DNA of 64,000 nucleotides, from the NCBI GenBank assembly GCA_944350115.1, contig CALVNZ010000003.1:1-64000 (forward strand). Reading direction: 5' to 3'. The notes beneath the pieces were generated by a model. It did not search any database and was not told the origin of the DNA. It saw nothing but the letters and a program-made list of their open reading frames with translations. This stretch comes from an uncultured Clostridia bacterium (GTDB taxonomy: Bacteria > Bacillota > Clostridia > Christensenellales > UBA1242). Position numbers and translations under genes: made by a program. Positions 2,056 through 3,881 of this stretch are shown here, in pieces. Position 1 is the first letter of the stretch. Each line of letters opens with the position of its first letter.

Positions 2056-2060
2056 GCATA

Positions 2061-2083
2061 AACACGGCGAAAGCCGTGTTTTT
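2061..2083 (+). terminator. Terminator behind tRNA-Val
   Basis: An 8-bp perfect stem (AACACGGC / GCCGTGTT) with a GAAA tetraloop is followed by a short T run. It begins five bases after the tRNA CCA and is also the first hairpin of the repeat array. Confidence 0.8.
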
Positions 2084-2117
2084 ACTTTCAGCAAAGCGCA
2101 GGAGCGCAATGCTGGTG
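2063..2117 (+). repeat. 55-bp direct repeat, left copy
   Basis: From CACGGCGAAAGCCGTG to GCTGGTG this stretch is identical to 2501-2555. It holds the GAAA-loop terminator hairpin and a second hairpin CAGCA..GCGC-AGGA-GCGC..TGCTG. The two copies bracket the tandem array. Confidence 0.85.
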
Positions 2118-2225
2118 GGAGATATATCGCTATCAAGGTTCACCCTTGCAAGCAAGTTCACCTTGCTAGATATAACTCCATTTAAATATGAGTAAAAAAG
2201 CACGACGACAGTCGTGTTTTTTTTT
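2112..2225 (+). repeat. Structured tandem repeat, copy A
   Basis: First of three units of about 115 bp starting CTGGTGGGAGATATATCG. The ends of its core (GGAGATATATC / GATATAACTCC) are complementary, and inside are two further hairpins (CAAGG-TTCAC-CCTTG and GCAAG..CTTGC), giving a three-way, cloverleaf-like fold. An ATTTAAAT box follows, then a terminator-type hairpin (CACGAC-GACA-GTCGTG) with a long T run. No credible coding frame. Confidence 0.8.
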
Positions 2226-2261
2226 GTTTACTTTGTAAACAAACATGCCATACAGGCATGT

Positions 2262-2374
2262 CTGGTGGGAGATATATCGCGATCATGGTTCACCCTTGCA
2301 AGCAAGTTCGCCTTGCTAGATATAACTCCATTTAAATATGAGTAAAAACACACGACGGCAGTCGTGTTTTTTTG
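2262..2374 (+). repeat. Structured tandem repeat, copy B
   Basis: Second unit, 150 bp after copy A and nearly identical. The panhandle stem and the GCAAG/CTTGC hairpin are kept, while the CAAGG hairpin has one change (CATGG). The terminal hairpin is CACGAC-GGCA-GTCGTG plus T run. The spacer before it carries the perfect hairpins GTTTAC-TTT-GTAAAC and ACATGCC-ATACA-GGCATGT. Confidence 0.8.
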
Positions 2375-2409
2375 TTTACTTTGTAAACAAACATGCCATA
2401 CAGGCATGT

Positions 2410-2522
2410 CTGGTGGGAGATATATCGCTATCAAGGTTCACCCTTGCAAGCAAGTTCGCCTTTGATGCGATATAACTCCATTTAAATATGAGTAAAAACA
2501 CACGGCGAAAGCCGTGTTTTTA
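2410..2522 (+). repeat. Structured tandem repeat, copy C
   Basis: Third unit, 148 bp after copy B. Its right arm differs (CCTTTGATGCGATATAACTCC), but the outer stem is kept. The terminal hairpin is CACGGC-GAAA-GCCGTG, a paired A-T to G-C change relative to copies A and B. Confidence 0.78.
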
Positions 2523-2555
2523 CTTTCAGCAAAGCGCAGGAGCGCAATGCTGGTG
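2501..2555 (+). repeat. 55-bp direct repeat, right copy
   Basis: Identical to 2063-2117 and closing the array. Bases 2556-2680 beyond it are plain AT-rich sequence apart from the promoter-like element at 2621 and the small inverted repeat GGAGT..ACTCC at 2653-2668. Confidence 0.85.

Positions 2556-2660: not shown

Positions 2661-3881
<1,221 letters not shown>

Follow-up and report, generated by a model that had tools for sequence, protein, structure and literature searches.

Y1 HUH transposases place single-stranded DNA on the 3' side of a short motif and do not duplicate the target. Elements with tyrosine integrases that target tRNA genes sit in the gene and supply its 3' part. Other mobile DNAs recombine at a site that is folded from one strand. 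The attC sites of integrons, which are 57-142 nt long and in which the boxes follow the order R ... R''-L''-loop-L'^R, fold in this way, keep their structure over their sequence, have unpaired bulges and occur in tandem arrays (PMC2727003). In CTX-phi (an IMEX, XerC/D at dif), the recombination site is a fold of about 150 nt of one attP strand, formed by two inverted arms that are separated by about 90 nt (PMC5357621).

The array described here lies behind a tRNA-Val gene in a stretch of 64,000 nucleotides (the window). We consider it probable that it is built from a short non-autonomous mobile element which moves as folded DNA, present in three tandem copies and a fourth that is truncated. 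The elements of the family, about 130-150 bp long and defined by the hairpin core TCAC[CT]-CTTGCAAGCAAG-TTC, are dispersed. They are inserted precisely behind TAT, the target is not duplicated, and their anatomy is conserved: TAT^[R - three hairpins - R' - L' - core hairpin - L(AATAT or GATAT)]^. As R and R' are complementary, their pairing encloses the three hairpins in a four-way cloverleaf, which is followed by the core hairpin.

With attC the element shares a site folded from one strand, the preservation of structure over sequence, unpaired bulges, tandem arrays and the order R, R'', L'', L', which was seen in the dispersed, tRNA-Val, 5S and tRNA-Glu types. Unlike attC, it has no AAC/GTT R box, its boundary is TAT^AA, with TAT and not GTT at the crossover, its conserved part is the apical loop and not the R box, and it carries no gene cargo. 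It also differs from attC cassettes in having many dispersed insertion sites; an integron integrase was not found linked to it, and we know of no integron in this lineage. The one-strand fold of two inverted arms is shared with the folded attP of CTX-phi; the element, however, is not a phage, it inserts at many TAT sites rather than at dif, and the role of Xer is that of a candidate. Like the tRNA-targeting elements it appears to sit in a tRNA gene and to supply the 3' part of this gene, but it is only 129-150 bp long and has no integrase, and the islands found at the same tRNA-Val in relatives are distinct from the array. The features of a classical MITE are absent as well: no target duplication is seen at empty sites, and the ends R and L are not mutual inverted repeats.

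The array in the window

ARAGORN placed tRNA-Val (anticodon TAC) at positions 1980-2055 of the + strand, on which the parts of the array are also read. Repeat copies were found at 2112-2223, 2262-2373 and 2410-2521, with a spacing of 150 and 148, and TRF gave a period of 150, 2.7 copies and 93% matches. The three tandem units behind tRNA-Val of the preliminary description were thus borne out, as were the ATTTAAAT box with the terminator-type hairpin in the units and the inverted tRNA 3' end (2109-2131 against 2037-2059, 23 nt, 87%). The repeat arms GGAGATATATC and GATATAACTCC are complementary but for one A.A mismatch. The register of the three units had to be changed: the first begins inside the tRNA gene, after CCTAT, at 2045 and ends with GATAT at 2173, and the others extend from 2174 to 2323 and from 2324 to 2473. 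In the same way, the proposed cloverleaf does fold, the tRNA 3' end at 2047-2059 pairing with 2109-2121, but it is not closed by the unit ends named at first.

Unit 1 (2045-2173, 129 bp) comprises R, the hairpins, R', the core hairpin and the right end GATAT. By analogy with insertion 3' of TAT, its left end R would be the last 11 nt of tRNA-Val, AACTCCCACCA (2045-2055). The R arm CTCCCACCAGCAT (2047-2059), made of the acceptor 3' strand of the tRNA, CCA and trailer, forms 13 bp with the R' arm ATGCTGGTGGGAG (2109-2121), the inverse of the tRNA 3' end; the 12 positions tested were all complementary. From sequence and fold, cloverleaf hairpin 1 (ACACGGCGAAAGCCGTGT plus a T run, which also resembles the terminator of the tRNA) was placed at 2062-2084, and the hairpin region CAGCA-AA-GCGC-AGGA-GCGC-AA-TGCTG, the outer part of which is shared with R', at 2089-2114. 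The core hairpin GGTTCAC-CCTTGCAAGCAAG-TTCACC (2138-2163), which shows covariation, includes the invariant 15-mer CTTGCAAGCAAGTTC (2145-2159). The first repeat copy (2112-2223) folds with -36.2 kcal/mol and z values of -5.2 on the + strand and -5.8 on the - strand, equalled by none of 200 shuffles, and the single-strand fold of the tRNA plus the array reached a z of -12.4.

Unit 2 (2174-2323, 150 bp) has hairpins at 2201-2216, 2223-2243 and 2243-2261, R' at 2262-2271, the core 15-mer at 2295-2309 and the right end GATAT at 2319-2323. In unit 3 (2324-2473, 150 bp), R' is found at 2410-2419, the core 15-mer at 2443-2457 and GATAT at 2469-2473. The core covariance model, in the training set of which the window sequences were included, matched the three units at 2118-2178 (65.4 bits), 2268-2328 (60.6 bits) and 2416-2478 (60.3 bits). 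The fourth unit, truncated, extends from 2474 to 2555, and its 56 nt at 2500-2555 are identical to 2062-2117. Downstream of the array, a collagen-like GPTGPTG repeat protein of 399 aa is encoded at 2682-3881.

R:R' is intact, with 13 bp, in unit 1. Units 2 and 3 have kept R', but their R arm is degenerate (AACTCCATTTAAAT), and for this reason they fail to close the cloverleaf; they therefore look inactive and may be mere duplicates. The simplest reading is that of an old insertion grown by duplication or unequal recombination. That the array arose without mobility, by local tandem duplication and inversion of the tRNA 3' end through replication slippage or template switching, would agree with the duplication-like inner units, with the identical 56-nt end blocks and with the lack of the conserved core in further tRNA-Val arrays, class B among them. 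We give it a very small chance, as the same core and layout recur at non-tRNA loci, with empty sites; for the family it is contradicted, and it leaves a core conserved across species unexplained. Slippage could nevertheless account for the growth in unit number of the window array.

Distribution and insertion sites of the family

The 15-mer CTTGCAAGCAAGTTC was present in 52 of the 112 genomes (species) of the genus, a genus of gut bacteria, in up to 24 copies per genome, with no match for a reversed-pattern control; among the 52, at least one match (L109) is due to chance and lies in coding sequence. The core covariance model detected 3 copies in the source genome and as many as 17 in its relatives; the 16 other families sampled had none. 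In an order-wide sample of 396 genomes, 19 had a match to the 15-mer. True elements were found in two sister genera of the same family (g40 and g45; L251, L252), and the matches examined outside the host family lay in coding or otherwise unrelated sequence and were not elements. The source genome (865,569 bases) has no copy besides the window array. Even so, the refutation set out in the preliminary description, an array confined to one assembly and devoid of covariation, does not apply: copies occur in other genomes, and their stems covary.

Named records with the core were MAGs of uncultured Clostridia or Firmicutes, one of them labelled Christensenella, and the IMG/VR viral contigs gave no match. 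No description of the family turned up in a literature search restricted to open-licence papers. A search for a long autonomous version bounded by left and right ends gave none, and the coding context of the copy-dense loci consisted of housekeeping genes only. At four loci (L104, L110, L124, L151), the apical CTTGCAAGCAAG is swapped for a longer hairpin (TCAAATACAAC...GTTGTGCTTGG), TCAC and TTC being kept.

To look for empty sites, the flanks of 16 dispersed insertions were joined and compared with the genomes of the genus. At several loci a sister species gave a contiguous match across the joint, and the aligned junctions showed insertion exactly after TAT, with no target duplication, as in the empty site GCATATATTAT|TCACTAAAGG compared with the filled one, ATATTAT-TGACTATGTG...CCGACAATAT-TCACTAAAGG. 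The cleanest comparisons were L149 with L279 and L193 with L285, L290 and L291; L103 and L218 fit, and for L229, L097, L090 and L086 divergence of the empty allele makes the comparison less clean. As the right end AATAT resembles the target, tandem pairs would be accounted for by insertion behind a copy already in place. The strand bias relative to GC skew was weak (31/82, p 0.035).

Element copies were found behind tRNA-Val in several species, at tRNA-Glu (L140, L152, L153), where the arms contain the T-arm sequence GGGTTCGAAT, and at the 3' end of 5S rRNA (L157, L169; GACATTGCTGG). Further copies adjoin tRNA-Arg and tRNA-Leu, and one target is a GTGGATAACTTTTGC site near a DnaA-box-like sequence. 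The earlier proposal of a non-autonomous mobile element targeting tRNA ends is thus supported by these positions at the ends of tRNA-Val, tRNA-Glu and 5S rRNA, by the dispersed copies in relatives and by the empty sites of sister species. A pure tRNA-derived repeat, proposed at the same time, is unsupported because most of the copies in relatives have no connection with a tRNA.

In the tRNA-Val gene, the apparent point of entry is CCTAT^AACTCCCACCA, so that R would encode the tRNA 3' end. This parse rests on the analogy with the dispersed empty sites and on two genomes (G005, G025) in which a full CTCCCACCA and, behind it, a terminator-type hairpin are present to the right of the array; we infer that it is the displaced original end of the tRNA. 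In two other genomes, islands of about 4.3 kb (G007, L044) and 13.7 kb (G019, L243) lie in tRNA-Val between the tRNA and the array, and both duplicate tRNA nt 29-76; in the G007 island, a 336-aa tyrosine integrase adjoins the tRNA. Since these islands push the array away, arrays and islands are separate, and the position of the islands indicates that the array is the older in both genomes.

Other units occur behind the same gene. In a second class (GGTGGAAGGCTACAAGGTTCTGC...GCAGGTTCTTATAACTTCCACCA; L027, L033, L038, L049, L051, L072) the arms are the same and the core is different, and G052 has both classes in one array. In G011 (L050), a structured unit of about 200 nt, located about 100-240 nt after the start of the tRNA-Val CCA, is flanked on either side by a copy of the tRNA-Val 3' end with its terminator and has inverted AGCCCTATAAC arms; the conserved core is absent from it.

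Fold and covariation

In the dispersed type (about 135-140 bp), R AAACTATGTGATG is followed by three small hairpins, R' CATCACATAGT and L' ATGTATAACCATC, and then by the stem AGCC, TCAC[CT], CTTGCAAGCAAG, TTC, the stem GGCT and TCCGATAATAT. Folds with DNA parameters gave z values from -5.0 to -11.3 for ten elements, and the cloverleaf layout was obtained for the dispersed, 5S and tRNA-Glu types and for unit 1 of the window. Complementarity between R and R', which was found by looking for it, holds for pairs of unrelated sequence (CATCACATAGT, GCTGGTGGGAG, CCCCGCAAAAG, CCAGCAATGTC, TTGCCGAGCTT), mostly 64-97 nt apart; the layout is thus common to types with different arms (dispersed, tRNA-Val, tRNA-Glu, 5S rRNA and others). 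Out of 11 positions, an arm matched its own partner at 9.5 in the dispersed type and 8.8 in the tRNA-Val type, compared with 6.9 and 6.0 across families. The pairing is poor in some copies, 50 of 128 units having fewer than 9 of 11 pairs.

For 29 diverse cores, the core stem was 97% paired, against 16-53% when slid, and 34 double-changed cells were counted compared with 9.6 after shuffling (0/500). The whole dispersed element (30 elements) was 92.8% paired, against 20-42% when slid, and its covariation, also analyzed with RNAalifold, exceeded that of all 500 shuffles (0/500), mostly via hairpin 3. In the tRNA-Val arrays, R' was complementary to the tRNA at 10 or more of 12 positions in 10 of 49 loci, compared with 11 of 2450 after shuffling, and it tracked the host tRNA, including the variants CTCCC and CTTCC and the trailer nucleotides.

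The nature of the pairs bears on the kind of molecule that is folded. G-T and A-C pairs numbered 13 and 9 in the core stem and 12 and 21 in R:R'. The stems therefore covary without an excess of G-U over A-C, which favours folded DNA over RNA; this pairing pattern is an indication, not proof, that selection may act on the DNA rather than the RNA structure. A structured small-RNA or regulatory RNA family, transcribed from the tRNA promoter or from promoters of its own, would account for the strong fold, the compensatory changes and the terminator-like hairpins with T runs, and in the dispersed copies a -35/-10-like TTGCAA, 17 nt, TAATAT can be read. Against it, besides the missing G-U excess, stand the Rfam search (no match at the gathering threshold, the relaxed-threshold matches all being below the family cut-offs), the precise presence or absence of the element at unrelated loci of sister species, and a sequence that varies with the type of target while the structure is kept. 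We thus regard an RNA family as highly improbable, and the small RNAs first suggested for this array were not upheld.

Proposed mechanism and candidate enzymes

Under our preferred reading, the element would move as folded DNA, most likely single-stranded, as the fold and the pairing statistics suggest. R'L' would serve as a splint pairing both ends of the element, L at the 3' end and R at the 5' end, which would place the L^R junction inside a stem, like the crossover of attC or of the CTX-phi attP. A recombinase acting in trans would then join or exchange strands at L^R. Tandem arrays would result when an element enters at the AATAT^ of a copy already present, or when copies recombine unequally. 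At tRNA-Val, the R arm AACTCCCACCA... would encode the tRNA 3' end, the original end being displaced to the right of the array; this would keep the tRNA functional and would force R' to track the tRNA sequence. Going further, we tentatively propose a new kind of mobile cassette, a folded single strand that forms its recombination site from its own ends on an internal splint, with a left arm that carries the 3' end of the tRNA or 5S rRNA gene, co-evolves with it and so allows entry into such genes, and with the chromosomal XerS-like recombinase of the host or another enzyme as mobiliser. If true, few mobile cassettes with a folded site of the attC kind would be as short, and the family would provide natural covariation data on a recombination fold; a mobile element would encode the 3' end of an essential tRNA, so that its own structure would be tied to the tRNA sequence.

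No integrase or transposase was found linked to the element family. Another explanation is that the elements are short PATE- or REP-like derivatives of IS200/IS605-type IS, moved in trans by a Y1 HUH transposase, R:R' being secondary. With IS200/IS605, PATEs and REP they have in common that they are non-coding, have terminal hairpins and insert exactly behind a short motif, which is not duplicated and which the motif at their right end resembles. Genomes with a Y1 transposase (PF01797; 13 of the 112) also carry more cores (mean 5.2 vs 1.6, p 0.002), and in G040 an IS200-like Y1 IS (L236, 1340-2030) is found upstream of an element copy, at a distance of about 300 bp. This IS, however, has unrelated CCACGGG hairpin ends, no matching parent IS ends were seen in the ten Y1 loci examined, and in the DNA retrieved around the nine other loci the core was absent, only look-alikes with 2 mismatches being present. 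Moreover, Y1 is absent from 42 of the 52 core carriers, including the high-copy genomes G057 (21 copies), G059 (24) and G147 (11), and long R:R' pairing is not known to be needed by IS200/IS605 elements. We consider this origin unlikely, and the Y1 transposase, missing in most carriers, a poor fit as the mobiliser. Two further candidates were set aside: reverse transcriptase, absent from 42 of the 52 carriers and without correlation (p 0.77), and the number of tyrosine recombinases, which also fits poorly (rho 0.19).

A phage-integrase-family protein was present in 111 of the 112 genomes. It is the single one in 24 of them, 10 of which carry cores. The best match examined is a XerS-like protein of 342-345 aa, which scored 189.3 bits with NF003462, the XerS model (cut-off 267), and 84.5 with TIGR02249, the integron integrase (cut-off 265). 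The tandem junction TTCCGATAATATAAACTATGT resembles B. subtilis dif (PMC3025954): the Firmicutes-type dif pattern used for the search has 20 fixed positions, of which the junction matched 18. The host dif was not found with this pattern, the best matches being the elements and other 3-mismatch matches being at control level. These data hint at the genus-wide single XerS-like recombinase as one candidate mobiliser.

In G057 (L261), the DNA immediately 5' of the XerS-like gene contains two copies of the element. An AATACTATATNNAGTAT-like palindrome, possibly dif, recurs near this gene in several species (L259-L266).
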